A stretch of DNA of 32,373 nucleotides from a virus: IMG/VR virus record IMGVR_UViG_3300025873_000022, positions 1-32,373 of that record. One strand, written 5' to 3'. Numbering within the stretch: the stretch's first letter is position 1; each line of letters opens with the position of its first letter. The position numbers and the translations under genes were made by a program. Shown piece by piece: positions 1 through 32,373 of this stretch. The notes beneath the pieces are model-generated. The model was not told where the DNA came from and did not search any database. It was given only the letters and a program-made list of their open reading frames with translations.

Positions 1-153
1 TCATCTGAACAACGTTCAAGGAGAACTTCACCACCACCACCCGCCAAAACATTTCCGTTCGGGTCAATAACCAAGGCGGGTGATTGGGTTCCAACATGAA
101 ATTCAATTGGACTTCCGTTTCGTTTCCATGAGTTTGCGTTGTTTCCAATAATT
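1..153. repeat. Left copy of 153-bp terminal direct repeat (circular join)
   Basis: These 153 bases match 32221-32373 except for one position (T at 27, C at 32247). Overlap in the reading frame across the join shows a circular molecule or concatemer rather than a coding duplication. It is a product of assembly of a circular or permuted genome or, less likely, a true short terminal repeat. Confidence 0.9.
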
Positions 154-3100
154 ATTCCATTCGGATTGTTTTGAATAATATTATTGTTTCCAATTACAAC
201 TCCATTTCGGTTTTTAATGTTATTCTCATTTCCAATATTAAAACTCTTTGACGTTAATGGATTCGTTGTTATTTGTCCCGTTGTGTCCACATAACTCCAT
301 TTCGAGTTGTTTGGATTGTCCGCTTGGCTTTGTTCAACGTTATAATTTGTTGGAGTCAATGGATTGTTCAATGTTAAATTACTTTGTTTTGAAATTTCCA
401 ACTTTCCGACATTTACAATTCCTAATTCAGAAGCAAAATTTCTCATCAATCTGACTTTATTTGAACCAACTTGTCCAATTCCGCTGTCATAACTTGGTCC
501 ATACTCTTGACCTAATCGTGAGTGCAGTTGTTTCCTTGGTTTTGCAAGGGACCATTCAAATAATTCAACTTTTGTCATTTGATTGCTTGCGGGTTTGTAG
601 TCAACAATTTTATTTATTATGTAATATGTCGGGGCTTCTGAATTTTCAATATAAATTAATTTTTGAAATTCCAAATCTGAAATGTCTTGCGCTGTTAAAT
701 GGAACCACGCTGTTTTGATTTTTGGACGTGTTATAAGGTTTTCAATATTACGTTCCCAAAACACCCTATAAAGACCCTCACATGTTGCGAATGTCGCGGG
801 TGTTGGTTGTGCCATGTTTGCCAAAACGTCTTGAAAATATAATTGTGGATAATATGCAATTGTTCCAACTGTTAAATCGCCGAAATATGTTTCGTCCTCA
901 TCACAATAAACACCCGCAAATGGATAGTAATTTAATTCGTCCGCTGCATTTGATGGATTCGTTTGCGCAAATCGCCATGTGTTTGCGTTTGTAAATCCGT
1001 CATTCAAGTTCAATGGAGTTTTCCCACCCCACAATAAAATTCTCGCAATGTGTTCGTCAATTTTGTCAGGATAGTCAGCATTTGAATATGTGGACCATAT
1101 TGTTGAATATTCGGAATGAATTACGGGAATAAAAGGTGCCTTTGACGTGTTGGTCGCAATAACTCGGTCGCGGAACATATATGTTGGCGCGTAATAATTT
1201 GACCCAATTATTTGGTCCTCATTCACAAATAATTCTCCTAAATCTAAAACCTCGGAACCCAACTCACAAATTTGCGCTTTCCTCCTGTTTCTTTCCTCAA
1301 CAAAACCATCACTCCCGTCATTCATATATGAAAAACAAAGGTTTCGTTTTAATGAATCATAAATATATTTTGACGATTGTTTTCGTCCCCAATCTAATTT
1401 GTCGGACCAATCAATTGCGGTCGCCGCCCCCTCAACAAAATTGTCGCGTGGTTCAACCTTAATTGTTTTTGTGATTTCATTAGCTGACCAATATAAATTG
1501 AACAATCCTGTTAACCCATTCAACCATTCCAATTGTGTAACGTCGCACGGCAATAAATTTGAAACCGACACGGAACCGCCGTCAACAATAGTTGGTGTCA
1601 GACCTCCATTCATTTCCATTCGCTTCAATCTGTATTGACATTGACATCGGCTTCGGATTCCCGAACCACCACCAAATTCCTCCCACCATTCATAATTCAT
1701 TTCCTCATAAACTTCTGTATAATAATACACATAATCTTTGTCGGACAATATTTCAATTGTAACTCCATTGAATGAAAGGTCTGCGAAAATATTTCCCACC
1801 GCTGACGTTGGCAAATTTCCATTGCAATAACCCCAAATATTCGAATTTGTTCCACCTGACGAATTCAAATATTTACAATCAGCGACAATTGGTTCAACTC
1901 TACCTGTGGAATCTTTATAATGCATAACATATTGAACCGCCTTATAACGAAAACCAACACTTTCACCCTCGTAACCACCACCCACAACAATGTTCCAACC
2001 ACAACCATAAGCATAACTATAATAAATGAAACCACTTTCATGAGACGCCACGTTAAACATTGGGTCTAATGTTTCATTTGTTCCTAGAATCACGGCGTCG
2101 TTATACATTTCAACCTGACACGCGCCGTTGAATTCATATTCACCCAAAAAATTGGTGTTGAATTTCGCGCCGTCTGGGAAATCCTCGGCGTGTGATGTTG
2201 TTGGTTGTGGTGGTGGTGCTGTTGTCCAATCTGGTATGCAACTCCAATCACTTCCAACCCAAGACCAACCACAAACAGGCAAATTGAAAACCCCTAATTG
2301 GTCGCCATTAGCTAATGGATAGTTCGAACCCGTTCCCGAACCCCAATACCAACCAAAATAAGAAGCGGGAGGAGAATTTCCTAAAAGTAAATTTACGTCA
2401 ATAGGTTGTGTCGTGAATCCTAATTGAGTGATTAAATTACTCGGGTCCGATGTCGGCGTTACAACTTGCAATTCATGCCAACAACCTTTGAAATTCGATG
2501 CGTGTCCTGTCCCTCGTAAGTCCCAAGGAATTTTCCAACCTGTTTCGGTTGACTCTTGTTCATATTCAAACGCATATTGTTCCAACATGCTCTCGTCATT
2601 TTCCCACGATTGTGCGGGCGTTGCAGAAATTAATTTGTGGAACCATTCTGTTTCCATAAAATCCGAGTCCAATGTGTAACCTTGCTTTGCCAAAATTACT
2701 TTCACCATGTCATAAATCCAAATCGCTGGCGCCATTTCCTCAAAGTGAACTTGGTTCCCATAAATCCATTTTCCTGTGTTTATTAACGGATAAACAACAT
2801 GTGTTCCATCACCACCAATCAGTTGTCCGCTGTTGTTATAGTCCCACGTCGCCATCACATTGTCCCGTGAGTATTGAATTATATTTGGAGTGTCTGCATA
2901 AAAGCCTCCCGCGTCGAAATCAATATCACACAAATTTAGTTTGTCAAGTGCGTTCACCCATTTATAATTGTCTCCAAATACAACACATTCATAATAGTCA
3001 GGAATTTCGTCAATTGCATGTCCTTTGATTTGAAACCCACCCTCCAAAACCAATATTCCGTCAACAAAAATCCTTGCTTTTTTTCCCTCAATATATTCAA

Positions 3101-3341
3101 ACGAATTATAAAATGAATCTGAAATTAAGAATTTCAAAATCTTATTATTGTTTGACGTTGCGGGAATTTGAAATGATTTTGAGAACGAACCTTTTGAGGA
3201 CGTCATGTCCATAACATCTTTTATTGAAAATGTTAATGCTAAAGGAAAATTTGACGCTTCATAAATGTCGAGTTCCCCTTGGACAGACGCGTCCGATGAG
3301 TCAATAACTTGAAATAATATATTTGGATTCTCTGTTGCCAT
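1..3341 (-). CDS. Tail hub / baseplate-fibre protein, N-terminal 1113 codons (gene continues at the right end of the window)
   Basis: This frame opens at ATG 3341 and runs off the left edge. Because the window is circular it continues from 32220 to a TAA at 32127, giving about 1144 residues. The N-terminus (residues about 1-130) carries a pattern I associate with large tail proteins of Bacteroidota siphophages: a beta-rich start, then SSKGSFSKSFQIPATSNNNK, which I take as a distal-tail/hub-like domain. Near residues 1033-1075 there are repeats of the type IGNxNxI followed by NGxxIGNN, resembling the left-handed beta-roll of trimeric adhesins, so the C-terminal part may be a trimeric host-contacting fibre. 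It lies between the 498-aa tail protein and the tape measure. The start has an A-rich leader and no Shine-Dalgarno. The tail role is inferred from size, position and motifs. Confidence 0.75.
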   Translation of the reverse strand, partial: MATENPNILFQVIDSSDASVQGELDIYEASNFPLALTFSIKDVMDMTSSKGSFSKSFQIPATSNNNKILKFLISDSFYNSFEYIEGKKARIFVDGILVLEGGFQIKGHAIDEIPDYYECVVFGDNYKWVNALDKLNLCDIDFDAGGFYADTPNIIQYSRDNVMATWDYNNSGQLIGGDGTHVVYPLINTGKWIYGNQVHFEEMAPAIWIYDMVKVILAKQGYTLDSDFMETEWFHKLISATPAQSWENDESMLEQYAFEYEQESTETGWKIPWDLRGTGHASNFKGCWHELQVVTPTSDPSNLITQLGFTTQPIDVNLLLGNSPPASYFGWYWGSGTGSNYPLANGDQLGVFNLPVCGWSWVGSDWSCIPDWTTAPPPQPTTSHAEDFPDGAKFNTNFLGEYEFNGACQVEMYNDAVILGTNETLDPMFNVASHESGFIYYSYAYGCGWNIVVGGGYEGESVGFRYKAVQYVMHYKDSTGRVEPIVADCKYLNSSGGTNSNIWGYCNGNLPTSAVGNIFADLSFNGVTIEILSDKDYVYYYTEVYEEMNYEWWEEFGGGSGIRSRCQCQYRLKRMEMNGGLTPTIVDGGSVSVSNLLPCDVTQLEWLNGLTGLFNLYWSANEITKTIKVEPRDNFVEGAATAIDWSDKLDWGRKQSSKYIYDSLKRNLCFSYMNDGSDGFVEERNRRKAQICELGSEVLDLGELFVNEDQIIGSNYYAPTYMFRDRVIATNTSKAPFIPVIHSEYSTIWSTYSNADYPDKIDEHIARILLWGGKTPLNLNDGFTNANTWRFAQTNPSNAADELNYYPFAGVYCDEDETYFGDLTVGTIAYYPQLYFQDVLANMAQPTPATFATCEGLYRVFWERNIENLITRPKIKTAWFHLTAQDISDLEFQKLIYIENSEAPTYYIINKIVDYKPASNQMTKVELFEWSLAKPRKQLHSRLGQEYGPSYDSGIGQVGSNKVRLMRNFASELGIVNVGKLEISKQSNLTLNNPLTPTNYNVEQSQADNPNNSKWSYVDTTGQITTNPLTSKSFNIGNENNIKNRNGVVIGNNNIIQNNPNGIIIGNNANSWKRNGSPIEFHVGTQSPALVIDPNGNVLAGGGGEVLLERCSD

Positions 3342-3358
3342 AATTTATTGGTTTTCAA

Positions 3359-4855
3359 TTACATACGACCCCATCGTTCGTCAACCGCATATTCATAATT
3401 GAACTCTATTGTCATGTAATTTTCTTTTGATTTTGTGTTTTTTATACTTTTTGATTTTATTAAAATTGGAACCCAAAAATCACATTCGTTCCAATCCTCG
3501 AATTCCGCCATGTCCCGCCATAACGGGGTCGGGTTGATTTTGCTGTCCACGTCCATGATTTTCATATAAACTTGTGCTGACGAACCAATCATTGAAAACC
3601 ATTTCGCTTCTCGTTGTGTTAAACTATGACTTTTAACTTGTCCTCGTTTTGATGTTTTGTTGGACCAATTATTTTTTCCATAAGCAAATAAATTATTTGG
3701 CAATTGCCAGACATCGTCCCCTCCACTGCTAGTTGCCAAAATTCTTTTTTGGAATTGCTGACGTGCAATCACAATACTTTCAACAGCTGTCCCGTCGCTT
3801 GTAAATGCGTCCCAACCTCCCAATTGATTTCTCCACATGAATCGTTTATAACCCATTCCCTTGCACGTTCTGTCAACCTTAATTCTAAAAGGTGCGGCAA
3901 TGTCATCGGAATAAACGCCACCACCAGACGCCGTTTCCGCGTCTAAATGAACATAATAATATGCAACATTGTCAAACTCTTGTTCAAACAAATTACCCTC
4001 GGCTGCATTTGGTATATTATAAGCAAATGTTGATTTTGGTCCACACATAAATGATTTCATTCCGTCCCTGTCTCCATCAACATAAAACAATCTAGTGTTC
4101 AACAGATTGTCAGATTTATCGTAAGTTAGCAAACGAATTCTTGCATAAATTGGGTCGGGGTGAACATACGTCCACAACCACGCACAATATGCAAAGTCCT
4201 CGTCCTCTTTCATTGTCGCACGATATTCATTTAAGAAACCAACCTCGACGCCTGCGCGGTTAGCATAACGCGGGACGTTATTTAATATAAATAAATATTG
4301 TCTGTCGGCAAATAGTGAGTCAAAAGCTAATTCAAAATTTCCCCAATTCCCAACCATTCTTTTGAAATTCCAATCAATCTGTTGAACACCCTCATGTCCT
4401 GTAAAGTTGTTGGACGTTGTTTCGTCTGGGTCCAAAACAATCAATCCTGTTGCTGCGTCTAAATATTCGCGTTGAACAATAACTCGGAACAATCTGTTTC
4501 CTTTATATTCCCAATCAACCATTGTGCCTGTAATATATCGGTCGTCTGACCCTTTTGCGGGACAATTAGCAAGTGTGTAAATACTATACAAATGCGCGTC
4601 TGTATACGGATTTATAACGTCCTCAATGTTAATATAAAAGCTCCCCGCCGAATTCAACCGCGACGCGGCTCTCATTTTCCCACCAACATCAACCCAAGTT
4701 GAGGCGGGTGTCATTGCGGGTCCGTTCCAAACTTGAACTTGAACCACCACATTCAATGTGTCTGCGGAACCCTCTGTCATATTAAGCACTACTGGCAACA
4801 AAGATGAATTTATTGAATAGCTGTCTGGTTGTGTTGAAATCGTTACGAACGCCAT
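3359..4855 (-). CDS. Large tail structural protein (498 aa), probable distal tail/baseplate component
   Basis: An intact 498-residue frame with an A-rich leader before its ATG. It is mostly beta-type sequence rich in aromatic residues and glycine, with no transmembrane segment or signal peptide. I recognise no catalytic motif. It lies 17 bp upstream (in transcription) of the hub/fibre gene and 12 bp downstream of a neck-type protein, so it almost certainly belongs to the tail. Position and composition fit a distal tail or baseplate wedge protein. A minor tail-tube-like protein is an alternative. The specific role is inferred and the fold would need structure prediction. Confidence 0.6.
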   Translation of the reverse strand: MAFVTISTQPDSYSINSSLLPVVLNMTEGSADTLNVVVQVQVWNGPAMTPASTWVDVGGKMRAASRLNSAGSFYINIEDVINPYTDAHLYSIYTLANCPAKGSDDRYITGTMVDWEYKGNRLFRVIVQREYLDAATGLIVLDPDETTSNNFTGHEGVQQIDWNFKRMVGNWGNFELAFDSLFADRQYLFILNNVPRYANRAGVEVGFLNEYRATMKEDEDFAYCAWLWTYVHPDPIYARIRLLTYDKSDNLLNTRLFYVDGDRDGMKSFMCGPKSTFAYNIPNAAEGNLFEQEFDNVAYYYVHLDAETASGGGVYSDDIAAPFRIKVDRTCKGMGYKRFMWRNQLGGWDAFTSDGTAVESIVIARQQFQKRILATSSGGDDVWQLPNNLFAYGKNNWSNKTSKRGQVKSHSLTQREAKWFSMIGSSAQVYMKIMDVDSKINPTPLWRDMAEFEDWNECDFWVPILIKSKSIKNTKSKENYMTIEFNYEYAVDERWGRM

Positions 4856-4867
4856 TGTTTTATTTTT

Positions 4868-5398
4868 TTAGATTGTTATTAATTGTGCTTTTGGAATTGA
4901 ACCCATAATCATTGTTTCAATTTGTTTATTATATACCTGACCAATTTTTTGGATTTGTTCATTAACTTCATTTTGTGTTCGTCTGATAAATCCAAGTTTG
5001 TTTTTGTCCATTGGATTCCCAAGTCCCCACCCTTTGCCTTTTGAGGTTTGTTTTGTTGCGATAGCAAATGCAATTCCTTTTATAACATTGTTGTCGCTTG
5101 AAACACCTTTGATTTTCAACCAACGAATTAATCCTTGAATATATTTTGAATTCTGTGCTCCCGTTCGTGCTCCCGCTGTAAATGGAATGTTGGACGCGGG
5201 CACTCCATACTCAACGACGTCCCAATAGTCCAAACCCCTAATTGAAACAAACAACCCAAATTCTGTTGGTTGTTGAATTGTTGCGGTGAATGAATTTATT
5301 AAAGCACCCGACGCGTTTCTTTGCAATCGAATTAATTCCATTCCCCACAAAATCATAATTTGGTCCGCCATTTGATTTATTAATTTAAGGTCAAGCAT
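4868..5398 (-). CDS. Neck / head-tail joining protein (HK97 gp10-like, 176 aa)
   Basis: The protein has a short N-terminal helix followed by the stretch VVEYGVP...PFTAGARTGAQNSKYIQGLIRWLK. This resembles small neck proteins of the gp10 type, where a conserved Y/E-G loop and a GxxTGxxS-Y-I motif precede a long helix. Its 176 residues are near the usual 120-180. The start overlaps the end of the preceding gene by 19 bp, which suggests translational coupling. Next to a tail-terminator-like gene and ahead of the large tail proteins, it probably forms part of the head-tail connector or tail completion complex. Sub-function is uncertain. Confidence 0.5.
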   Translation of the reverse strand: MLDLKLINQMADQIMILWGMELIRLQRNASGALINSFTATIQQPTEFGLFVSIRGLDYWDVVEYGVPASNIPFTAGARTGAQNSKYIQGLIRWLKIKGVSSDNNVIKGIAFAIATKQTSKGKGWGLGNPMDKNKLGFIRRTQNEVNEQIQKIGQVYNKQIETMIMGSIPKAQLITI

Positions 5399-5874
5399 GT
5401 TCGATATGTTTGTAAGTTAAAATTAAATTGACACACAAATAAAGCGTCGTTCGCCGCGTCTTTGCTTCTGGTTATTGAAATTGCTGGCGAAGCTAAAACA
5501 CAAACGTTTGCACCCAATGTGTTCAATACATTTTCCAACCACACATAAAAACAATTTTCAATGTCGTCCCATAATTGTGTGATATATTCAGGGGTTTGAG
5601 AATAAGCTGTTGACGGAACATAATTATAAATTTGAATCGTATAACTTGACGATTGAATTCCATAATTTTTCTCGTAGTTTGTTGCTTCAATTGTTGAGGT
5701 TGGTGGGTTCACAATCATTAATGGCAACGTTTTATTATGAATGTCGTTGACTTCATTTGACCAACCAAAATAAAATCCATTGTTTGCCGCTTGTGCCTCA
5801 TCACACTTGAACGATGTCCATTGAGTTTTCATTTCACCAACGATTGATTGTAAGTTTGAAAGGTTATTCGCCAT
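5380..5874 (-). CDS. Tail terminator / tail completion-like protein (164 aa)
   Basis: A 164-residue protein with an N-terminal helix, a central beta region (PLMIVNPPTSTIE, SYTIQIYNYVPST) and a C-terminal strand-rich part, which is the general outline of tail terminator proteins (gpU-like). No membrane segment or enzyme motif is visible. It sits between the tail assembly chaperone and the gp10-like neck protein and overlaps the latter by 19 bp. In other siphophages the terminator lies close to these genes. The assignment rests on size, position and secondary-structure pattern and is therefore tentative. Confidence 0.4.
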   Translation of the reverse strand: MANNLSNLQSIVGEMKTQWTSFKCDEAQAANNGFYFGWSNEVNDIHNKTLPLMIVNPPTSTIEATNYEKNYGIQSSSYTIQIYNYVPSTAYSQTPEYITQLWDDIENCFYVWLENVLNTLGANVCVLASPAISITRSKDAANDALFVCQFNFNLQTYRTCLTLN

Positions 5875-5894
5875 TTTGTTTTTGTTTTATATTT

Positions 5895-6107
5895 TTATTT
5901 TGTTCTCATTTTCGATTTCGCTTCATTCTCAATTCCCTCCCGAACTGCATTTTCATATTCATTGCACGCCGATGTCCAACTAATATAAGTAAACACCTCA
6001 TAAACATTTTGTCGTTTAACAGAATTAATTGCGTTCAATGGTTGTTCTGTGAACAATCCACTTTTTGCAACGTCATATAAAGTATTTAACCACCCATAAC
6101 CCTCCAT
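5895..6107 (-). CDS. Tail assembly chaperone extension (T part): -1 frameshift product or separately started 70-aa protein
   Basis: This frame is the -1 frame relative to the upstream 225-aa gene. It is open without a stop from before the ten-T run at 6204-6213 down to 5895. A -1 slip on T TTT TTT (6212-6206) would join 193 codons of the upstream gene to 103 codons here, giving a protein of about 296 aa. Alternatively, an ATG at 6107 overlaps the upstream stop (TAATG) and would give a stand-alone 70-aa protein by coupled re-initiation. The sequence is helical, with EGYGWLNTLYDVA and VYEVFTYISW. Siphophage chaperones commonly make such short/long pairs, so I favour frameshifting, but re-initiation is not excluded. 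Confidence 0.6.
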   Translation of the reverse strand: MEGYGWLNTLYDVAKSGLFTEQPLNAINSVKRQNVYEVFTYISWTSACNEYENAVREGIENEAKSKMRTK

Positions 6108-6784
6108 TATATTCCAATTTCCCGTGGCGTGTCTGTCTGAAATTCTGTTCCCCTCTTTGAAAACGTTTTCAAATTTTGTTGCAATTGTTCCGTTGCATTT
6201 GTCAAAAAAAAAACAAAGTCCCAAACAATATTCATTGGCAATTCCTGAAATAATCGTGCTCGTTTCATTATGAGTTTTTCATTATAGTCCTCGTCTTGGT
6301 CTTTTGTTTTACAAAGAATCGCCATTTGTTCTGGGACAACAGCAAATCTCCCTCCATCTTTTTTCCCACTCAACATATTTAATTGCGCGCTTTCAATATA
6401 ATCACCGAATGTTGTTTGTTTGAAATCAATCGTTGGGAAATAATATGTTTCATTCTTAAATTTGAATGAGGGTTTTTCTGAAAATGTTTCTTTGTGTTTT
6501 ATGTCATTCAGAAATTTCAACATGAATTCGAGACACTCCTCAATCTGATATGAGGGACAACGTTTAATCATTGATGTTTCGCAGTTTGTTAAATAAGCAA
6601 AACATTCAAGGTTTGAGTTTATTGCGTTCACCTCGTTTTCCTCCTTTGTTTTTTCCGCCATCAATTCCTCTGTGACTTGGTGTTCATTAATAATATGAAC
6701 AATTTTCGCATATTGTTTCACACTTAATTCGGACCATTGATTCGGGAGTTTTACTTTTTTCTTTCCAACTTTCAAATTAATCAT
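6107..6784 (-). CDS. Tail assembly chaperone (G-type, 225 aa)
   Basis: A 225-residue, mainly helical protein beginning MINLKVGKKKVKLPNQWSEL, a type of start (short beta hairpin, then a helical domain) that I associate with tail assembly chaperones of Bacteroidota phages. The gene overlaps the next frame, contains a ten-T slippery run 33 codons before its stop, and lies in the tail block. These chaperones bind the tape measure and promote tail tube polymerisation around it. The start overlaps the upstream gene by 8 bp. The role is inferred mainly from the frameshift architecture and position, because the tape measure is several genes away rather than adjacent. Confidence 0.5.
   Translation of the reverse strand: MINLKVGKKKVKLPNQWSELSVKQYAKIVHIINEHQVTEELMAEKTKEENEVNAINSNLECFAYLTNCETSMIKRCPSYQIEECLEFMLKFLNDIKHKETFSEKPSFKFKNETYYFPTIDFKQTTFGDYIESAQLNMLSGKKDGGRFAVVPEQMAILCKTKDQDEDYNEKLIMKRARLFQELPMNIVWDFVFFLTNATEQLQQNLKTFSKRGTEFQTDTPREIGI
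6203..6214 (-). promoter_or_regulatory. Candidate -1 ribosomal frameshift slippery site (G, ten T, G)
   Basis: On the coding strand the bases are G followed by ten T and G, read in frame as GTT TTT TTT TTG. The heptamer T TTT TTT (6212-6206) lets both tRNAs re-pair after a -1 slip. The -1 frame is open on both sides and continues 103 codons beyond. This is where programmed frameshifts occur in tail chaperone genes of lambda-like phages. A homopolymer this long can also give transcriptional slippage with the same outcome. I did not identify a clear downstream pseudoknot. Confidence 0.55.
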
Positions 6785-7211: not shown

Positions 7212-7218
7212 AATTTCA

Positions 7219-7226
7219 CAAAAGTA
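7219..7226 (-). promoter_or_regulatory. Candidate late promoter -7 box (TACTTTTG) between TerL and the tail block
   Basis: The coding-strand octamer TACTTTTG fits the Bacteroidota consensus TAnnTTTG and is identical to the box upstream of the small terminase gene. It lies in the 55-bp gap after TerL, with 7 nt between the box and ATG 7211. No clear -33 TTG is present at the usual spacing, so this is only a candidate. Confidence 0.35.
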
Positions 7227-7266: not shown

Positions 7267-8577
7267 TTATTTGAAATAGACGATTTGGGACTTGCTTAAT
7301 TCAAAAAATTCCCTCATTATAATTGCGTCCGACAAGTCAGGTGAACGCCCCAACATTGATTTGATTTGTTCTTTTGGAGTGAGGGACAATTTGTTTTCTT
7401 TGTCAATGTCATGTTGTTTACATATTTCGAATTCATTTATTATTTCCTGTCTCATTGTTGGGTCGGAACAATTAATGAACACCTGTCCTTTTTTTACACG
7501 TTCCGCAAATTTATAATAACATTGAGTTTTTAAGTTTTTATAATTCTCATTCCTTAACGCCCTAGAATTATTAACGAATGATTTTATTCCTTTCAATATG
7601 TCAGGAATTGCACCACCAACCCCGTCCGAATCTGTTATAATATTTGAACGTGAAATCAGATTGTCATTCGCAATCCTTTGAACGTTGTCCGCCAATTCTG
7701 TCAATGTGTTTTTGTCCCATGTGAATATTTGTTCACATCGGAATCCTGACCACACACAAACGACACTCTTGTCCCGTCCGAATCTGGCAACATCAACCGA
7801 CATAAACTTTTGTCCTGTCATAACATAATCGTTTGTAAACATATCGTTCAATGAATCCACATCAAACAATCTGGTTTGGTCGTCGCTATATTCCCAATCA
7901 CCATAAAGCAAACGTCTTTGTGTCAACATGTCTGTTTGTTTTAATTGTTCAATGTAGTGTTTGGAAATGTTTGGATTGTCAGTAACTAACGATTGAATGA
8001 ACCTGTGATTTGGTTGCAATGTTTTTGATTTGTGTTTCTTATAAAACTGCGTGTAAATCCAACCAATGGACGGATTGCACGTCATAAGTATTTTTGGAAT
8101 GAGATTGTTTTCGTCTAACCTATAACGAATTCGTGATTGCAAAATGTTATATGCTATTGGTGTGATTTCTGCACACTCGTCAATGAAACAGCCTGAAATT
8201 TCAAGTGAACCAAGGGCGTCGAACTGCGGGTCCGAGGGAAATCTGAAAAGGTCTTTCAATAAAATTTCTGATTGTGAATGATGGAGTGTGATTAATGATT
8301 TTGTTTCGTTATAAGTATAATCAACATTTGCTTTCAATCCTTGCATTGAACACACCTCAAAGAATGATTGGAGTGTTGTCTCTTTCAAAATTTTCAAACG
8401 TGAACGACCAATCACCCAACGTGTCTTTTTATATTTCAACGCTGATTTCAATATCCAATAAACTCCCAACATTGATTTGCCTCCTCCCGCTCCGCCGCCA
8501 TACAATAAAACGTTGGTTGTCCTGTCCTCCAATATGTCAATCGCCTGTGTTTGTTTTTTCGATAGCTTCATGGTCAT
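7267..8577 (-). CDS. terL: Terminase large subunit (436 aa)
   Basis: This is the DNA packaging motor: the ATPase pumps DNA into the prohead and the nuclease cuts the concatemer. Walker A GGGAGGGKS is at residues 27-35, with K34 contacting phosphate. Walker B plus catalytic acid FIDEC is at 131-135, and the coupling motif TCNPS at 166-170. The RNase H-like nuclease shows D262 (SVDVARFGRDKS), the D316/D318 cluster (TDSDGVGG) and D417 (LSDAIIM). The length of 436 aa is normal. The start overlaps the small subunit gene by 41 bp; the first ATG (8577) and a second ATG two codons later are both possible. I cannot tell cos from headful packaging from the sequence. Confidence 0.95.
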   Translation of the reverse strand: MTMKLSKKQTQAIDILEDRTTNVLLYGGGAGGGKSMLGVYWILKSALKYKKTRWVIGRSRLKILKETTLQSFFEVCSMQGLKANVDYTYNETKSLITLHHSQSEILLKDLFRFPSDPQFDALGSLEISGCFIDECAEITPIAYNILQSRIRYRLDENNLIPKILMTCNPSIGWIYTQFYKKHKSKTLQPNHRFIQSLVTDNPNISKHYIEQLKQTDMLTQRRLLYGDWEYSDDQTRLFDVDSLNDMFTNDYVMTGQKFMSVDVARFGRDKSVVCVWSGFRCEQIFTWDKNTLTELADNVQRIANDNLISRSNIITDSDGVGGAIPDILKGIKSFVNNSRALRNENYKNLKTQCYYKFAERVKKGQVFINCSDPTMRQEIINEFEICKQHDIDKENKLSLTPKEQIKSMLGRSPDLSDAIIMREFFELSKSQIVYFK

Positions 8578-16070: not shown

Positions 16071-16865
16071 TTAAAACAATTTCGTTTGCGTTAAATATTT
16101 CACCAATCGTTTGTTGGCAATTTCAACATATTCACTTGATATTTCCGAACCAATCCATTTTCTGTTTTGTAAATGTGCCATTTTTGCTGTTGTTCCCGAA
16201 CCCATAAATGGGTCATAAATTAAATCGTTTTCATTACTCCAACTATAGAGATGGTCTGCTGCTAATTTTTCAGGGAAAACGGCTGGGTGCCCTACATTTT
16301 CATTTTGAAACCCCACTAAATAATTCCATATATTTACTCTAATTCCATTGTAGTCGGTTATTTGTTGTTTTTTAACATTGGATTGTTGGCGCTTGCTTCC
16401 GTCAGGATTGTATAAATTTCCCATTGAACTAATATCTCCAACAGTTTTATTTGGTCTGTCCTTTATTAAGTTTGTAGTGTTTGGTTTGCCTTTACTAAAA
16501 ATAAACATATATTCAAAAACTTGATAATAGCGATTTTTAGAGGGGAAAGGGGGGCTGTTTTTCTTAAATATCATTGTGTCGTGTAAATTAAAACCACATT
16601 CCATAAAAAATAAAGCTTGTCGAAAACTTGAACCCGTTTCACTTCCGTCAATCGTTGCGTCCCCCACAACCCAAACAACAACCCCTCCTTTTTTTGTAAT
16701 ACGAAACAATTCTTTTGCGATGGATTCAAAATTAAATTCATATCCCTTATATGTTCTTAAATTATCATAAGGTGGGGACGTAATAATTAAGTCAACAAAA
16801 TCGTCAGACATTTTGGACATCGTGTCCAAGCAATTTTCGTTGTATATTTTATTAATTTCAATCAT
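16071..16865 (-). CDS. Orphan DNA methyltransferase, beta class (264 aa; N4-cytosine or N6-adenine)
   Basis: A SAM-dependent DNA methylase. The catalytic motif TSPPY is at residues 29-33 and the SAM-binding motif DPFMGSGTT at 218-226, so the catalytic motif comes before the SAM motif, the beta-class order. SPPY is common in N4-cytosine enzymes but also occurs in N6-adenine enzymes, so the modified base is uncertain. No partner restriction nuclease is next to it, so it is an orphan, probably protecting phage DNA from host restriction. Its ATG overlaps the stop of the annealing-like gene (ATGA). Target specificity cannot be read from the sequence. Confidence 0.88.
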   Translation of the reverse strand: MIEINKIYNENCLDTMSKMSDDFVDLIITSPPYDNLRTYKGYEFNFESIAKELFRITKKGGVVVWVVGDATIDGSETGSSFRQALFFMECGFNLHDTMIFKKNSPPFPSKNRYYQVFEYMFIFSKGKPNTTNLIKDRPNKTVGDISSMGNLYNPDGSKRQQSNVKKQQITDYNGIRVNIWNYLVGFQNENVGHPAVFPEKLAADHLYSWSNENDLIYDPFMGSGTTAKMAHLQNRKWIGSEISSEYVEIANKRLVKYLTQTKLF

Positions 16866-17976: not shown

Positions 17977-18459
17977 TTATTTTTTTGAATTTAAGTAAAA
18001 CCAAGCGTTGTCCCTTTCCTCCTTTTCACACGTTGTGAACATTGTGTTGTGCATTTTATTCAATTGTGTTTCAATTCTTTTATCTCTGTCTGTCCACTCA
18101 ATTGAATTTCTTTCGCCATTTCGTGTGAAATATTTTGCGTTTGTATAATCGGAAAACCTGTCGTGTAGTTCAAAAACAATTTCCGAAACCCGTCCATTTA
18201 TTTCCATTGTTGTCGGACGGGCCACAGCACAGTGCCAACAATCCAATAAAGCGTGAACATTCCTATTAACACAATCAAAAAGTCCATAAGGATTTGACTT
18301 AACATTTCCACATTCTTTTCTCAAACGTGTTATGTCTTTGTGAGTAAATCTGTCCGCTTGTCTTTCCTCAAATCTTTGTTGAGTAATTTTTTCCATTTGG
18401 TTGTCTGTTATTTCAATTGTTGGTTTGTTGATGTTGCTTGTGTTAAGAAAAATTTTCAT
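17977..18459 (-). CDS. Hypothetical early protein with structured leader (160 aa)
   Basis: I choose ATG 18459 because the start context matches exactly the structured-leader gene at 11698; a longer reading (13 more codons) would run into the hairpin. The 160-residue protein has a possible HTH-like basic helix (RFTHKDITRLRKECGN) and a C-H-C cluster (LLDCWHCAVARPTTMEI). It is the first gene after the 417-bp non-coding region and so probably among the first expressed. No family is recognised; a regulatory or host-takeover role is possible. Confidence 0.65.
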   Translation of the reverse strand: MKIFLNTSNINKPTIEITDNQMEKITQQRFEERQADRFTHKDITRLRKECGNVKSNPYGLFDCVNRNVHALLDCWHCAVARPTTMEINGRVSEIVFELHDRFSDYTNAKYFTRNGERNSIEWTDRDKRIETQLNKMHNTMFTTCEKEERDNAWFYLNSKK

Positions 18460-25138: not shown

Positions 25139-26119
25139 TTAATATCCAATTTGAACCATGCTGTCATGTAGAAATTGAACACCCATTTTGAAATAACTTC
25201 TTACATAAACTTTCTCTGTAAGGTCATCATAAAACATTTTCATTTCTCCTTGTGGGTCGTTAGTGTCTGTCCCAACTGCAAGATTTTGTTTTGCAACATA
25301 ACACGCTCTGATGTCGTCAGCTGTCCCAACTTGTGTTGCCGCTGTGTCCCAACTATACATTGGAATAATTTCAACACCTCTGAAATAAACTCTGACAAGT
25401 CCGTCAACTAATGTTGAATAACCCTCTGCATTTCCTAGGTCCTCTAATGTTGTTAAATAATCATCATATAAAGTTCTCGAAACATAAAACGCTTTGTCTC
25501 TTGCTTCAACTCCTTGTAATGCTGACGGTGCTGATGTCCACATTGCTCTCAATGCTGTTAATGCGTTTCCTGCCGCCCATGCTCCTGAATTTGGAATCAC
25601 AACTTTGTTTCCGTCCACTGTTGCGTCTGCAATTAGTAATTTCCACCACCCGTCTGTTGAGTCATAACACGCCGCCGAAGCTCCCGCCTCCGCTGTGTCT
25701 CCCCACCAAGCTAATTTGGTGATGTCGTTTCCAATTGATTGTCTCACGTTTGCAAGAATTGTGTCCATTAAATCTGTTCCTGTTAAATCAAAAACATTAA
25801 TTCCGTTTTTGAAACTTTCCTCAATGTAAGTTCCAAAAAATGCGTCTTGACATTCCGAAACAGCGACTCTTAATCGTCCCGCCGTTATTACTTTGTCATT
25901 CACATCGAACTCCCCTGTTTCCGCTCCACCACATGTCGTGTATTTTGCAACAATACATGACAGCGCGTCAGCTGTGTAAAGGTTCATTTTGTGTTTTACG
26001 TTCGGAATTACTCTAAATTGGAAAATGTCCGAATCTCTAAAGATTGGTTCCAAAAACAACTCCGAAAAATTAGCGCCTGAATAGGTCGCTGCGATTGCTG
26101 ATTGTGCTACATTTGCCAT
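25139..26119 (-). CDS. Major capsid protein (HK97-fold type, 326 aa)
   Basis: The 326-residue size, the position directly after the protease/scaffold gene and an Ala/Thr-rich, beta-type sequence are all typical of a siphovirus major capsid protein. Characteristic parts are LFLEPIFRDSDIFQFRVIPN at the N-terminal arm, a long spine-helix region (NVRQSIGNDITKLAW), and FYVSRTLYDDYLTTLEDLGN later. The strong A-rich start suits high expression. Identification is by context and composition rather than a unique motif. Confidence 0.8.
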   Translation of the reverse strand: MANVAQSAIAATYSGANFSELFLEPIFRDSDIFQFRVIPNVKHKMNLYTADALSCIVAKYTTCGGAETGEFDVNDKVITAGRLRVAVSECQDAFFGTYIEESFKNGINVFDLTGTDLMDTILANVRQSIGNDITKLAWWGDTAEAGASAACYDSTDGWWKLLIADATVDGNKVVIPNSGAWAAGNALTALRAMWTSAPSALQGVEARDKAFYVSRTLYDDYLTTLEDLGNAEGYSTLVDGLVRVYFRGVEIIPMYSWDTAATQVGTADDIRACYVAKQNLAVGTDTNDPQGEMKMFYDDLTEKVYVRSYFKMGVQFLHDSMVQIGY

Positions 26120-26158
26120 TTTTTCTAATTTTTAGTTATTATTATTTATTAAATTGAT

Positions 26159-26590
26159 TTATGCGTGTTTCTTAATTGCTTCCGCCATTGCATTAAAGAA
26201 ACCCAAATTTGGGTTTGCTGATTTCTCAACCTCAACCACACTTGGGTCCGCTTTTGCCACAACGTCTGTTTTTCCCGCTTTTAATTTAGAGTTTTCGTTT
26301 TCTAAAACTTTTATTTCCTCCAATTTGTTTTCAATTTCTTTCGCATTGTCCTCCGCTTCGTCCTCTGACATTCCAATTTTTTCCTCAATGTCATGAATTG
26401 CGTTTTCTAAATTGTCAACTCTGTCTTTTAGTTCCTCGTAACTTAACGCCCAATCCGCCTTTTCAGCGTCGCTTTCCTCGTCCTCTGGTGCGTTTTTAAT
26501 TTCAGGTGTTTGATTGATGAACAAGTCCTTGATTTGTGATAAAAGGTTTTTGTTTACCTCTTTCACATCATTTGTGTTTTCTTTTGCCAT
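26159..26590 (-). CDS. Nested scaffold protein from an internal start (143 aa)
   Basis: In-frame ATG 26590 is preceded by an A-rich stretch (ATAAATATAAATAAAACAGA followed by AATC), like other starts in the window, and begins MAKENTNDVKEVNKN just where the ClpP-like domain ends. The product is acidic, helical and coiled-coil, as expected of a scaffold, and would share the C-terminus of the fusion. This resembles the lambda C/Nu3 arrangement. The internal start is an inference from context. Confidence 0.55.
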   Translation of the reverse strand: MAKENTNDVKEVNKNLLSQIKDLFINQTPEIKNAPEDEESDAEKADWALSYEELKDRVDNLENAIHDIEEKIGMSEDEAEDNAKEIENKLEEIKVLENENSKLKAGKTDVVAKADPSVVEVEKSANPNLGFFNAMAEAIKKHA

Positions 26591-27223
26591 GATTTCTGTT
26601 TTATTTATATTTATTATTGAATTGATTTTATCGTGAGTTATATTTTTGAATTTTGAAATATTGTAATTGTTTTCAACTTTCAATGGTTCTGTTATTCCGT
26701 TCGCAAATCCAAGTTCATTCGCTTCAAGCGCATTGAACCATGTTTCGGATTCCATCAAACCAACCAATGTTTCGACATCTAAATTTGATTTTGTGGAATA
26801 TATTTTCGCAATTTCGTTTCTGATTTTATCTAAAATCGAGGCTGTTTTTCTTAATTCGTTAGCGTCGCCACCTGACATTGCAAAAGGATTGTGAATCATG
26901 AACAAAGAATTTTCCGCCATTTCTATTTTATCACCCGCCATTGCAACAACCGACGCAATCGACGCCGCGATTCCCTCAATTTTAATAACAACTTTTTTCG
27001 CGTGGTTTTTTAATGCGTTATAAATCGCAATTCCGTCAAATACGTCGCCACCTAATGAATTGATGTGGACGTTCAAATCCTTGTCTCCAACCTCTTGTAA
27101 TTGATTAATAAAACTTTGCGCGTTTACTTCATAACTTCCGACCTCTGAATAAATCCAAATGTCCGCTGTCTCTGACGTTGCTTCGTTTTTGAATTCAAAC
27201 CAATTGTTTGCAGTGTTTATCAT
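26159..27223 (-). CDS. Prohead protease (ClpP/S14-like) fused to a scaffold domain (354 aa)
   Basis: The N-terminal 200 residues are ClpP-like: NSLGGDVFDGIAIYN (residues 55-69), EGIAASIASVVAMAGD with catalytic Ser88, and MIHNP with His111. The third catalytic residue is not assigned. From about residue 212 it is a charged, helical coiled-coil region (DRVDNLENAIHDIEEKIGMS and more) typical of scaffolds. Such proteins mature the capsid by cutting scaffold and capsid N-termini. An internal start at ATG 26590 (M212) probably makes the scaffold separately. It lies just upstream of the major capsid gene. Confidence 0.88.
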   Translation of the reverse strand: MINTANNWFEFKNEATSETADIWIYSEVGSYEVNAQSFINQLQEVGDKDLNVHINSLGGDVFDGIAIYNALKNHAKKVVIKIEGIAASIASVVAMAGDKIEMAENSLFMIHNPFAMSGGDANELRKTASILDKIRNEIAKIYSTKSNLDVETLVGLMESETWFNALEANELGFANGITEPLKVENNYNISKFKNITHDKINSIININKTEIMAKENTNDVKEVNKNLLSQIKDLFINQTPEIKNAPEDEESDAEKADWALSYEELKDRVDNLENAIHDIEEKIGMSEDEAEDNAKEIENKLEEIKVLENENSKLKAGKTDVVAKADPSVVEVEKSANPNLGFFNAMAEAIKKHA

Positions 27224-27250
27224 AACAGCAAAAATAAAAAATGTAAAAAT

Positions 27251-27616
27251 TTATTTTACGAACTTTTTGGAAATTTTTATTTTCTCCCGTTTCCTTGTTC
27301 GTTTTATGTTGTTAAGTTTGTGAAATTTGTTTCGGTATTTATAAACAATTCCTTGAATTTGCCTGTCGCTTAAATTATATTCAATTGACAAATCCATAAA
27401 TGTGTGAGTGATGTGTCCTTTGTTTTCAACCAATAATCTGTCAAAATCAATTAATATTAAATAGTTGCGAACCCGTGTTGGTTCACAAATACCACGTTCA
27501 ACCAAATGAAAAATAACGTCCTTGGGTGTCGCGAACTCACCGAAACGTGTTCTGACTTCATTCCAAATTATGTCAACGAACTTGTTAACATGTTCAATGT
27601 CATTTGGTTTTGCCAT
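27251..27616 (-). CDS. HTH-like protein of unknown role (121 aa)
   Basis: A 121-residue helical protein with a possible HTH (FMDLSIEYNLSDRQIQGIVY followed by KYRNKF) and a very basic C-terminus (KRTRKREKIKISKKFVK). Overlaps the upstream gene by 17 bp. It lies between tape measure and protease genes, an unusual place for a regulator, so it might be a DNA-binding morphogenesis factor. Fold inferred, function unknown. Confidence 0.55.
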   Translation of the reverse strand: MAKPNDIEHVNKFVDIIWNEVRTRFGEFATPKDVIFHLVERGICEPTRVRNYLILIDFDRLLVENKGHITHTFMDLSIEYNLSDRQIQGIVYKYRNKFHKLNNIKRTRKREKIKISKKFVK

Positions 27617-27923
27617 TCAAATGTGTTGTTAATTGTTTCATTGTTCTGACTAATTTTTTTGCACAACCACCACAACCAAAAATGCTTGTTGTAACATTTT
27701 TGTCAAAATATTTTTGAAAAAAAGGCAAAAGGTTCAACGCTTGGGTTCTGTTATATTGAATATTCCCACGCGCGTCATTTGTAATTTGATTGGTGATTTT
27801 TTCAATTTCCAATTGGTCGTCCAATGAAATTGTTTCGGCGACACGTTCAATGTTGTTCATAATTTTTTGGTTGTTTTTTTGTCTTACAATATTAAGAGTT
27901 TTTGAGGAAATTGGAATCACCAT
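27600..27923 (-). CDS. Small Cys-containing protein (107 aa)
   Basis: A 107-residue helical protein with an internal CGGC (IFGCGGCAKKLVRTM), a C-x-x-C that may bind metal or be redox active. ATG 27923 has the usual A-rich leader; a second Met about 20 codons on is a possible alternative. It is one of three small genes between tape measure and protease. Function unknown. Confidence 0.55.
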   Translation of the reverse strand: MVIPISSKTLNIVRQKNNQKIMNNIERVAETISLDDQLEIEKITNQITNDARGNIQYNRTQALNLLPFFQKYFDKNVTTSIFGCGGCAKKLVRTMKQLTTHLNGKTK

Positions 27924-27955
27924 AATTTTTTGTTTTTAACAAATGAAAGTTAATT

Positions 27956-28144
27956 TCACCATTTGTCAATTGGACATTTGCCGCCCCACTCTTTTGACAT
28001 TTTTGTTTTTGCTTTCAAATTACACTTACATAACCCACACGAATCAGCGTTGAAAATAGATAAAAATTTCAACTTGCGATGTTCACATTTTTGACAAATT
28101 TTGAGTCGGTTTTGTTGTGTTTTATTGGAAATCGTTATATTCAC
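27956..28144 (-). CDS. Small zinc-ribbon-like protein (62 aa), GTG start
   Basis: The frame begins with GTG at 28144 because no ATG occurs before the first cysteines. Cysteines are in a CQKC...CGLCKC...C arrangement ending GGKCPIDKW. This looks like a zinc ribbon with an additional Cys pair, a type of protein I recall near tape measure genes in Bacteroidota phages. Possible roles include nucleic acid or protein binding during virion assembly. Confidence 0.6.
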   Translation of the reverse strand: MNITISNKTQQNRLKICQKCEHRKLKFLSIFNADSCGLCKCNLKAKTKMSKEWGGKCPIDKW

Positions 28145-28311
28145 GTCAGTGTTGTTTTTAGACGTTTTAAGACATAAACGTTGTTTTGTCTTATGATTAC
28201 ATTGAAAGTTTCTTTTATTTCAATAGACGAAAAATGCTTGATAAGAAAAATAAAACTTTTTTTCATTGTTTTTTTATTATGTTAAATAGAAATATCACTC
28301 AAATTCGTCAA
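28145..28311 (-). other. 167-bp gap after the tape measure gene with two competing stems
   Basis: No gene is seen. Near the 62-aa gene, coding-strand AAGACA can pair with TGTCTT (28187-28192 with 28169-28174) and ACGTTT with AAACGT (28176-28181 with 28162-28167). The two stems interleave and cannot easily form together. The rest is A/T-rich with no clear -7 box or terminator. Confidence 0.4.
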
Positions 28312-31300
28312 TTAGAACGACGCTTTCGCTTCAATATTCTCAACGCTTCTTTGTGATTGTGTAACGTCAGCTTCAACCAATAACACTTCTTGAGGTTCGT
28401 TATTTCCCAATAAGGATTCCATTTGAACGGCTTGTGTTTCCAACATATCCGTCCCAAACATCATTCCGCCGTCTGCGAATTTTTTCCCACCACCCGCAAC
28501 ATTCATTTTGGACAACATTGGTCGGAACATTGCTGTTGAACGTTTATTTATAACAGCTTCGCCACCCTCTAATTCTGCAACCCTCCCTCCAACTCTGAAT
28601 TTCTCACCGCCTTGCGCGTGTGAATTGCCGTGAACCATTCCACCTTTTGCAAAAAACGAATTGTCCATAATACCACCCAATTCCGCAGTTGGTGCCTGTT
28701 GCGCATTAATAGCGGTCAATTGAATTCCTGTCATTGCAATTTGACCCGCGGTCATAATTCCTTTTATAACCAAATCAGCGATAACATTTCCTGTCGCTTG
28801 ACCCGCCCAAATATTCATGATTGCCATGGCGCCCGCAATTATTGCGGAGGTTCTTGCAAACTGTTTGTCTTTCTCCCATTGTGCAGTTTTCAAATTCAAC
28901 ATTTTGTCGTCATGTTTCTTTGCTATTTTGCTCAGGGCGGCGTCTTGTTGTTCTTGGTTCATCACCTTATATTCCCGCGTTTCCTTGAATGCTTCGATTT
29001 CCACGTTTTTCGCAGTTTCAATTGTTCCAAGTTCCTTTTGTAAATTTTGATTTTGTAAACTATTCACTTCGTCCATAATTCCCATAACGTTGTCCATTGT
29101 AACTGCAATTGAATCCACAAAGTCCGCACCCGTGAACCCTCCATCTGGGTCGTCCTCACCACCCGTTCCAAATAAATTTCTATTCAACCAACCAGACGCG
29201 GGAGTCGTTTCACTCGTTTCCGCCATTTTGTCCTCATAACCTTGAATTTCCTCTTGTAATTTTTTGATGTTTGCAATGGTTGCCGCTGTGTTTTCTTTCT
29301 CCGCTTCCGTAACGTCCTCATTAGCTTTGACGACTTTTAGTGCCATGTCGAGTTTTACTTTCGCGACTTTCAAGGCTTGTGCAATTTGTTCGTCTGCTAA
29401 TTTCGCGCCGCCCGCAATTAATTTGTCCAATACTTTCAAATAATTTTCCTCAACTTCCAACGCCGCTTCCCTTTTTTCCAATGCTGTTTCCTCCGCTTCT
29501 TCCGCTTCTTTGAACAAGTCATTAATTTTTTTCATTTCTTTTGAAACTTCTTTGTCAACTGTGTTCAAATCAATTTTTGCGTTTTTTAATTTCTCGATTT
29601 GTTTTGTAACGTCCTCCTGCGTAGCTTTCCCCAAGTTTCTCAATATTATGACACGTTTCAATTGTTGCTGTTCGTCTCTCACCGCTTTGCCAAGTTTTTC
29701 ATAGCGTGTCAATTTTCTTTCGTCCGCTTCCTCCTCCTCCGTTTTTGCAATAACAAGTCCCTCAACAACAGTTTCGGCGGCTTGCATAATTTCATTTTGC
29801 TCTGTTTGCCTCTTTGTAATTTCCTCATTCTTTTTGTCAAACTTATGTTGAATTGACCACAATTCCTGTTTTCTATTAATTAATGCATTGTTCAAATTAA
29901 CCTCATCATACATAAATTGTCTCCCCTTTTCACTGTCGTGCATGTAATCTCCCGTTTCTTTTTTCATCTTCATGTGCCATTTATGCGCTGCTTGCTTTGA
30001 CTCTTTTAGCTTTTTCTCCGCGGCTGTCTGAGCTTCCGTGGCGTTAACTAATTTCCAATTATTGTCCTCCAACCATTTTGTGCGTTCGAGTTCCTCCTCA
30101 ATTAACGTAACAACTTCCTCCTCCGCGGCTTGTAATATATATTTTCCCTTTATAGCATTAACGGCGCTTGAATAAGCAACTTCCAAATCTTTTGCCAATT
30201 GAACTTCGTTAGATAAATTGGATATATTTGTCCCCGCAATGTTATTCAATGCCTTAACCGCTTTCATTCTGTCCTCTCGCGTTTTTGTTTCGTCCTTTAT
30301 ATCTTTTATTAAATTTTTGACATTCATCATTTCCTCGGCTTGCGATTTTCGGCGCGAAGCCGCTTGCGCTTTCAATTGGTCGTTTTTGTCTTTCAACTTT
30401 TGTTCCGCTTCCGTAAGTTCCTCAACCGCGCCTGCGGTTTCGTCAACCTCGTCACCCATTCCCGAAAACATTGCAATGGCACCCGCCGCCAAACCTGCAA
30501 TCAACCCAATTGGCGTTGCTTTTATTGCTAGTCCCAACGCTCTCATTGATAATGTCAAACCTCTGGTCCCATGCGTCATTGCAATTGTTGCAACCCTCGA
30601 AATCACCATCGCACCGTTATAAAGGTATGTCATTAATCTGGCGGAAATAATTACGAGTTTATATGTAACGAACGCGCTAGTCAACCCCACAATAACTGGC
30701 GACAAATAGGACAACACATTAAATAGTCCCTGAAAAGCACCCAACATAAATTCCAACGCTGGCGCCATTTTTTCAATCAATTCAATCGCGAACCCTTCCG
30801 CTGCGCTTTTTGTCTCGTCAATTGAACCTTTTAATGTGTCGCGCATTGTTTCGGCAAAACTCTTGGCGGTTCCTTCCGATTCTTTGAGTTTTTTATTTAA
30901 GATTTCTAAATCTTCCGAACCCGACAATAAGGAGGCGAACGCCGTTACACTTCGTCTGTCTGTAATTTCCAACATTTCCGCAACATCAATTCCATTTGCT
31001 TCCAATTCCTGTAATGCGGGAACAAGTTCCTCAACTGATGTGATGTTTCGTCCCAAGGCCATTGAAAGTTCTCCCGTGGGGTCTGCTAATTTTAAGAAAA
31101 TATTTTTTAATGCGGTTCCCGCTGATGACGCCTCCATTCCTGTGTCCGATAAAGCCGCCAACAACGTAACTGTGTCCTCCAATTCAAACCCCATTTCGGA
31201 CGCTAACTTTCCAACCTTTGGAAATGCAACACCAAATTTTTCCAAATCAAATGCAGTATTTGAAAACGCCGCCGCCATAACGTCAGTAACTCTTGTGGAT

Positions 31301-32115
31301 TCGCTTGCGTCTAATTGAAATGATTTCAAGACAATTCCCACTTGTTTTGACGATTCTGCCAAATCATAACCAAATGCAAATGACAAATCCAAAATTCCCG
31401 ATGTCATATTCTCAATCTGGTCTGGTTGAAAACCTAATTTTGACAATTCTATTTGTAAACCCGCCACCTCTGACGCTGTGAACGCTGTGGAACTTCCTAA
31501 TTCTTTCGCTTGGGTCTCTAACATTTTCATTTCCTCCGCGGACGCACCCGAAATCACTCCCACTTGTTTGATTGCAAATTCAAAATCAACAAAAGTTCCA
31601 ATCACACGTTCCATTGTTTTGAATGCAATAACCACCGCACCAATTTTCATTGCTAGTCCCGAAAACGCGGCTCCATAATTTCCAACATTTCTTTGTGAAC
31701 GACCCATTGCCGAGTCCATTTTTTTCAATTTATTTGTGTTGTTGTCAATTTGACCAGATAATTTTTGAAATTCTTTATTGTTTTTTCCCAATGGGTCTTG
31801 TAATTTTCTCAATTGAACTGAAAGGGCTGCATTTTTTCGTGTCAAATCGTTATATGAATTCCCCAATTTCCCTGTGGATTCATTTAATTTAAGGACGTCA
31901 TTTTTATTCGCGTTTAATTCTTTCCTCATTCCTTTGAGTTTTGTTTCCGCTTCAACAATTGATTGGGTGAAAACTTTCCCACCTTTCCCCGCTTTTGCCT
32001 GCGCGGTTTTCAACTCTTTTAACCCCTTTTCTGTTTGAGTGATTTGGTCTTTTAACTTAACCATTGCCGATGTTCCCTCGACTCTAATGTTCAATATCGT
32101 TTCTAATGACGCCAT
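28312..32115 (-). CDS. Tape measure protein (1267 aa)
   Basis: The longest gene. It starts with coiled-coil helices (about residues 20-140), then a TP901-type tape measure core (about 180-400: FEFAIKQVGVISGASAEEMK, LGSSTAFTASEVAGLQIELS, AGTALKNIFLKLADPTGELS), hydrophobic helices near 470-555, long charged coiled coils, and a C-terminus rich in Gly with GGMVHGNSHAQGGEKF and LEGGEAVINKRS, an ending I have seen in tape measures. It sets tail length; at the usual 0.15 nm per residue the tail would be near 190 nm. Some cleavage of the C-terminus is possible. It lies 11 bp after the hub gene. Confidence 0.92.
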   Translation of the reverse strand: MASLETILNIRVEGTSAMVKLKDQITQTEKGLKELKTAQAKAGKGGKVFTQSIVEAETKLKGMRKELNANKNDVLKLNESTGKLGNSYNDLTRKNAALSVQLRKLQDPLGKNNKEFQKLSGQIDNNTNKLKKMDSAMGRSQRNVGNYGAAFSGLAMKIGAVVIAFKTMERVIGTFVDFEFAIKQVGVISGASAEEMKMLETQAKELGSSTAFTASEVAGLQIELSKLGFQPDQIENMTSGILDLSFAFGYDLAESSKQVGIVLKSFQLDASESTRVTDVMAAAFSNTAFDLEKFGVAFPKVGKLASEMGFELEDTVTLLAALSDTGMEASSAGTALKNIFLKLADPTGELSMALGRNITSVEELVPALQELEANGIDVAEMLEITDRRSVTAFASLLSGSEDLEILNKKLKESEGTAKSFAETMRDTLKGSIDETKSAAEGFAIELIEKMAPALEFMLGAFQGLFNVLSYLSPVIVGLTSAFVTYKLVIISARLMTYLYNGAMVISRVATIAMTHGTRGLTLSMRALGLAIKATPIGLIAGLAAGAIAMFSGMGDEVDETAGAVEELTEAEQKLKDKNDQLKAQAASRRKSQAEEMMNVKNLIKDIKDETKTREDRMKAVKALNNIAGTNISNLSNEVQLAKDLEVAYSSAVNAIKGKYILQAAEEEVVTLIEEELERTKWLEDNNWKLVNATEAQTAAEKKLKESKQAAHKWHMKMKKETGDYMHDSEKGRQFMYDEVNLNNALINRKQELWSIQHKFDKKNEEITKRQTEQNEIMQAAETVVEGLVIAKTEEEEADERKLTRYEKLGKAVRDEQQQLKRVIILRNLGKATQEDVTKQIEKLKNAKIDLNTVDKEVSKEMKKINDLFKEAEEAEETALEKREAALEVEENYLKVLDKLIAGGAKLADEQIAQALKVAKVKLDMALKVVKANEDVTEAEKENTAATIANIKKLQEEIQGYEDKMAETSETTPASGWLNRNLFGTGGEDDPDGGFTGADFVDSIAVTMDNVMGIMDEVNSLQNQNLQKELGTIETAKNVEIEAFKETREYKVMNQEQQDAALSKIAKKHDDKMLNLKTAQWEKDKQFARTSAIIAGAMAIMNIWAGQATGNVIADLVIKGIMTAGQIAMTGIQLTAINAQQAPTAELGGIMDNSFFAKGGMVHGNSHAQGGEKFRVGGRVAELEGGEAVINKRSTAMFRPMLSKMNVAGGGKKFADGGMMFGTDMLETQAVQMESLLGNNEPQEVLLVEADVTQSQRSVENIEAKASF

Positions 32116-32126
32116 TTTCTTTTTTT

Positions 32127-32373
32127 TTAATTACTTAATAAAACTTTTCTATACGTTACCAATAATGTGAACGGGTCTGTTTCCTCCAAATAAACCGCAT
32201 TAAGACAATACGTTCTCCCGTCATCTGAACAACGTTCAAGGAGAACCTCACCACCACCACCCGCCAAAACATTTCCGTTCGGGTCAATAACCAAGGCGGG
32301 TGATTGGGTTCCAACATGAAATTCAATTGGACTTCCGTTTCGTTTCCATGAGTTTGCGTTGTTTCCAATAATT
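32127..32373 (-). CDS. Tail hub / baseplate-fibre protein, C-terminal part (continues at position 1)
   Basis: This is the 3-prime end of the gene whose main part is at 1-3341. Bases 32221-32373 repeat positions 1-153, and the frame continues through to TAA at 32127 with the sequence ending ETDPFTLLVTYRKVLLSN. The only base difference in the repeat (27 against 32247) changes a Glu codon from GAA to GAG, so both give the same protein. Confidence 0.75.
   Translation of the reverse strand, partial: IIGNNANSWKRNGSPIEFHVGTQSPALVIDPNGNVLAGGGGEVLLERCSDDGRTYCLNAVYLEETDPFTLLVTYRKVLLSN
32221..32373. repeat. Right copy of 153-bp terminal direct repeat (circular join)
   Basis: Matches 1-153 with one substitution. 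See the left copy. The unique genome is therefore 32,220 bp. Confidence 0.9.

Follow-up and report, generated by a model that had tools for sequence, protein, structure and literature searches.

Absence of GATC, GTAC and CCGG from a phage genome, with other words missing from its close relatives, as a probable case of Type II restriction-site elimination

This study finds that the viral record IMGVR_UViG_3300025873_000022, whose whole stretch of 32,373 bases we call the window, contains not a single copy of GATC, GTAC or CCGG, and that its close relatives are each devoid of a different set of words. We consider it very probable that these absences reflect the elimination of many restriction sites under changing Type II systems of the hosts. 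Such purging is well supported, if indirectly, because the lost words are two-fold symmetric and in many cases known Type II sites, because they are erased synonymously and because the empty sets differ between close relatives.

Results

The genome and its relatives

The window record is a complete genome, because its ends repeat over 153 bases and because the G012 contig, which is 99.8% identical to the window and shows the same absences, crosses the end junction (Table 1). A near-identity search of phage records with the window gave no match, no relative of the window terminase was found in a bacterial genome collection, and no integrase was found among the window proteins scanned, which made up part of the protein set. 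Through the terminase we found 31 related viral contigs. By this protein the nearest cultured relatives are Flavobacterium phage 11b (48% identical) and Cellulophaga phage phi10:1 (44%), and a Bacteroidota host is likely because 11b is the nearest of the cultured phages; the window phage probably infects marine Bacteroidota. The relatives analysed were G001 to G008 (24-32 kb), which together with the window form nine long clade members, plus some shorter or more distant contigs.

Table 1. Features of the window discussed in the text
Feature	Position	Strand	Remarks
Complete phage genome without GATC, GTAC, CCGG; without or nearly without TTTAAA, GGATG, CCNGG, GCATC, GAAGG, CTNAG	1..32373		
Terminal repeat, left copy	1..153		152/153 bases identical to right end; G012 spans junction
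Terminal repeat, right copy	32221..32373		
Terminase large subunit	7267..8577	-	Pfam Terminase_3 / Terminase_6N; served to find and order relatives
Orphan N6/N4 DNA methyltransferase	16071..16865	-	PF01555
Residual GGCC	18220..18223		
Residual GGCC, within tail tape-measure gene	31057..31060		
Tail tape-measure gene	28312..32115	-	PhageMin_Tail

Words absent from the window

Counts over the whole length bear out the sequence-only reading that GATC, GTAC and CCGG are absent throughout the window, with 0 copies each in 32,373 bases. Its estimate that about 100 copies each of GATC and GTAC and about 30 of CCGG should be expected from composition also agrees with the computed values, which are 102, 102, 32 and 32 for GATC, GTAC, CCGG and GGCC. 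It had further placed the only two copies of GGCC at 18219 and 31057; the count of two and the second position are correct, but the first copy lies at 18220. Against Markov and codon nulls, these words are neither at normal frequency nor accounted for by codon or dinucleotide bias. A second-order Markov model, whose expectations are themselves lowered by the avoidance, still predicts 37 GATC, 13 GTAC, 37 CCGG and 20 GGCC, and synonymous codon shuffling of the coding part predicts 50, 34, 18.5 and 15. A null that holds the proteins, the codon counts and the codon-junction dinucleotides of the coding DNA gives 46, 24, 31 and 19 (z = -8.3, -6.2, -6.8 and -4.3, respectively). With site elimination taken as an observed/expected ratio below 0.1 at an adequate expected number, GATC (0/46), GTAC (0/24) and CCGG (0/31) are eliminated in the window. 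Exactly 3 of 135 testable 4-mer classes are purged there, and every one of them is a palindrome (p = 1.1e-3); TCGA is partly depleted (36 versus 95 expected under the codon and junction-dinucleotide null), and most of the remaining palindromes are near expectation. The absences in the window are thus unexplained by composition, codon usage or dinucleotide bias.

This list grows when enzyme recognition sites and every short word are scanned; from a greedy motif search only the first picks were taken, and symmetric classes were counted anew. Also absent are TTTAAA (observed/expected 0/39), GGATG/CATCC (0/39) and CCNGG (0/14), and nearly absent are GATGC (1/27), CCTTC (2/29), CTNAG (2/18), GTCAC (4/41) and GAAGA (6/55). 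The purged 5-mers of the window are enriched for sites on the REBASE list (6 of 9, p = 5.6e-3). The sequence-only reading had therefore named the three 4-mers correctly but was incomplete, having missed the purged words of five and six bases and having overlooked that the relatives lack different sets. Ten of the 21 leftover copies of the nearly purged words fall in the tape-measure gene, where 4.4 would be expected (binomial p = 5.5e-3), and this gene is perhaps a more recent acquisition.

Different empty sets in close relatives

Comparison with the relatives reveals that each close relative is without a different set of words. None of the nine long clade members has a single GTAC, where 38-86 copies are expected. 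GATC is missing from the window and G004 but occurs 200 times in G001 and 162 times in G003. G001 and G003 are without CATG, CCGG, GGCC, AGCT and CTAG; G005 is without GATC, CCGG, GGCC, TCGA, GCGC and AGCT; and G006 is without CATG, GCGC, CGCG and CTAG. Beyond GTAC, absences are found in G004 (GATC), G007 (CATG), G002 (CTAG) and G008 (AGCT). Most of the AGCT and CTAG zeros are not significant, since few copies are expected under a null that keeps dinucleotides. Mapped onto the tree of the terminase, GATC must have switched between presence and absence at least 6 times, CATG at least 5 times, CCGG and GGCC at least 4 times each, and GTAC at least twice.

Several side observations were made among these and other contigs. 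In the coding DNA of G001 and G003 (loci L117-L118 and L121-L122), GATC occurs at about twice its expected number (195 versus 102 and 154 versus 86), the reverse of the situation in the window. The distant relatives G021 (L135) and G020 (L136) are rich in CTAG and TA, and open frames cover little of them; reading through TAG raised the coverage somewhat in a crude test, and an alternative genetic code is unconvincing there. The methyltransferase also led to a phage contig of 170 kb (locus L080); in the 20.7 kb of it that were read, five palindromes (GATC, CCGG, GGCC, CGCG and CTAG) are missing or almost missing.

Symmetry of the lost words and their synonymous erasure

Homodimeric Type II enzymes are marked by two-fold symmetric sites, and the words lost from the clade are strongly biased towards such symmetry. 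In tests across the nine clade genomes, which are related so that shared history is counted more than once, 28 of 127 palindromic 4-mers are purged versus 18 of 1076 others (p = 1.5e-17), 11 of 118 symmetric XXNYY words versus 0 of 1080 others (p = 5.5e-12), and 15 of 130 symmetric XXNNYY words versus 0 of 1080 others (p = 1.4e-15); the gap between symmetric and other words is too wide to depend on genome kinship. Among XXNNNYY words none is purged, symmetric or not. The symmetric purged words are mostly known Type II sites, such as CCNGG, GANTC, ACNGT, GGNCC, GGNNCC and CCNNGG, and individual losses include GANTC in G005 (0/35), ACNGT in G003 (0/47), and GCNNGC (0/36) and GTYRAC (1/26) in G006. 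The lost words are Type II sites, either two-fold symmetric or Type IIS, with the exceptions of GACC, CCAG and ACAG in relatives. CCAG, an asymmetric word, is lost in the eight long relatives but not in the window. The asymmetric 4-mer GACC/GGTC has 0 of 45-70 expected copies on both strands of G001, G003, G007 and G008 (loci L117-L118, L121-L122 and L129-L132), and the enzyme list used holds no matching 4-base site.

Alignments of orthologs show how the sites differ where the amino acids are identical. None of 40 GATC copies of G003 is kept by the window, compared with 45 of 66 copies of GATT, and none of 32 CCGG copies of G004 is kept, while retention over all words at such positions is 53-54%. 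As judged from these aligned positions, the site differences arose by synonymous change, through loss in one lineage or gain in the other. Taken with the completeness of the absence, removal in the line of the window is the simpler reading.

The orphan methyltransferase

The methyltransferase of the window belongs to the N6_N4_Mtase family (PF01555, E 5.8e-44, 151 bits versus a curated cut-off of 26.7) and to PHROG 67, DNA methyltransferase (E 3.3e-56); its relatives in the PDB include the MboIIA and PvuII methyltransferases. It is above the family cut-off in 2 of 21 related records, one of which is the near-identical G012. As a cause of the absences it was rejected, since most relatives gave no match to the gene and still lack sites. 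The earlier argument that an orphan methyltransferase alone cannot explain three different sites is upheld by the same comparison, as among the relatives that share some of the absences, most gave no match to the gene.

Avoidance of CT on the sense strand

A second feature of the clade is a depletion of CT. The relative frequency of CT/AG is 0.53 in the window and 0.23 to 0.8 in the near relatives, as compared with 1.08 to 1.13 in phages 11b, P12002L and phi10:1. The avoidance is stronger for CT than for AG on the sense strand, and its strength varies between close relatives. The coding strand of G003 has 0 CTG and 46 CAG, where base composition predicts 246 and 366. In its two-fold codon pairs the share of the C-ending member is 2% when T follows and 51% when another base follows; the share of NCT codons is 2%, compared with 44% T in the control boxes. 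In the window, C-ending two-fold codons make up 11% before T versus 45% otherwise, and NCT codons 12% versus 45%, while phage 11b shows no CT effect in either two-fold codons or NCT codons.

Mutation of C to T as the sole cause of the CT depletion is rejected, since replacement affects not only C before T but also T after C; for the same reason, one mutation bias alone does not account for it. Neither does double-strand restriction explain the avoidance, because the strands differ, and restriction is therefore not the only pressure on the clade. Nearly all genes of the window and its relatives lie on one strand, so that transcription and replication cannot be told apart as the cause. A search of the literature on CT/AG depletion in phages found nothing relevant. 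We tentatively suggest, as a possibility, that besides restriction an undescribed pressure acts against CT on the sense strand (CU in mRNA), which would hint at a defence that is strand-specific or acts at the RNA level, or at a constraint on replication. CT avoidance is a more novel lead than the elimination of sites.

Discussion

The elimination of orthodox Type II sites is an established strategy of phages, commoner in non-temperate ones (PMC6286503). The window is a real and extreme case of this known strategy, and the turnover between its relatives is unusually clear. In the survey of Rusinov et al. (2018), elimination was found in 3.9-7.5% of the phage-site pairs of lytic dsDNA phages, the pairs having been chosen for a host that has the enzyme (PMC6286503). 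There as here, orthodox Type II sites are lost entirely or almost entirely (observed/expected < 0.1), in that survey mostly from non-temperate phages. In contrast to that survey, 22% of testable palindromic 4-mers are eliminated here, in nine related genomes that were not chosen by host and under a different null, so that the two figures are only roughly comparable, and the eliminated set changes between close relatives. A likeness also exists to the avoidance of restriction targets by plasmids (NAR 2023, PMC10359461), in that mobile DNA is shaped by the restriction repertoire of its hosts; there the avoidance is reported across plasmids, whereas whole words are absent from the phage clade. 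The cultured relatives, phages 11b and phi10:1, have few GGCC like the window (0/23 and 0/27), and CGCG is also scarce in them (1/10 and 1/23). Unlike the window, they keep GATC and GTAC, and their AG/CT frequency is normal (1.12 and 1.08).

Host restriction enzymes cut phage DNA at unmethylated sites, so that phages with fewer sites would survive more often and synonymous substitutions would clear the sites down to the last copy. As restriction repertoires vary among related hosts and strains, a phage lineage moving to another host would lose new sites and, with a former pressure gone, regain old ones by drift, which would lead to different empty sets in related phages. The differing sets of the close relatives point to rapid selection by changing restriction enzymes. 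That hosts carry enzymes cutting these sites, as the sequence-only reading had proposed, is favoured by the symmetry of the words, their synonymous erasure and the differing sets; the alternative it offered, a methylation pattern shared by phage and host, fits less well, since it would lift the pressure to lose sites. We infer host restriction enzymes as the agent, as well as their identity and the Bacteroidota hosts. Restriction pressure exists in a likely host group, because strains of Flavobacterium psychrophilum carry about 10 methyltransferases each, variable between strains and including CCGG, CCNGG, GATC and CGCG specificities (PMC11837570). The many motifs purged in one phage require either a host rich in Type II systems or several hosts, and the asymmetric words lost in relatives (GACC/GGTC and CCAG) count against restriction.

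Other explanations were weighed against restriction. A non-classical defence that reads the same symmetric words, such as a phosphorothioate-based or another modification-discriminating system, would select against the same kind of words, and GGCC and GATC are among the contexts open to phosphorothioate systems; we regard this as unlikely, as the breadth of the losses (CCNGG, GANTC, GCNNGC, GGNNCC, GTYRAC and TTTAAA) fits Type II specificities. The view that an unusual genome lost these words merely through its codon usage or its dinucleotide or mutation bias gains some appeal from the extreme dinucleotides of the clade, in which AG/CT reaches 0.23-0.8 of its expected frequency and TA about 0.5. 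This is very unlikely, because 13-46 copies of GATC, GTAC and CCGG are expected even under Markov models and under nulls that keep codons and junction dinucleotides, relatives of comparable or greater bias contain 162-200 GATC or 95-111 CCGG, and symmetric words are selectively affected; chance, codon and dinucleotide bias are rejected by the nulls, by zero retention at identical amino acids and by the symmetry counts. We give almost no credence to sites being methylated or used by phage or host and avoided as harmful, through mutation, regulation or methylation-dependent nucleases: the window does carry an orphan methyltransferase, but a single enzyme cannot cover at least three unrelated words, relatives without a detected methyltransferase gene also lack GTAC, CCGG or GATC, and mutation of methylated bases would leave a graded depletion where the absence is complete.

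In summary, under restriction-site elimination by changing Type II systems, the purged sets resemble a record of the restriction enzymes met by each phage lineage, and sequence alone might suffice to pair uncultured phages with the restriction repertoires of hosts. The additional avoidance of CT suggests a second pressure in the clade, beyond restriction. With conserved proteins and different empty sets, the clade is a natural experiment in which one can measure how fast, and in what order, sites are lost and regained.
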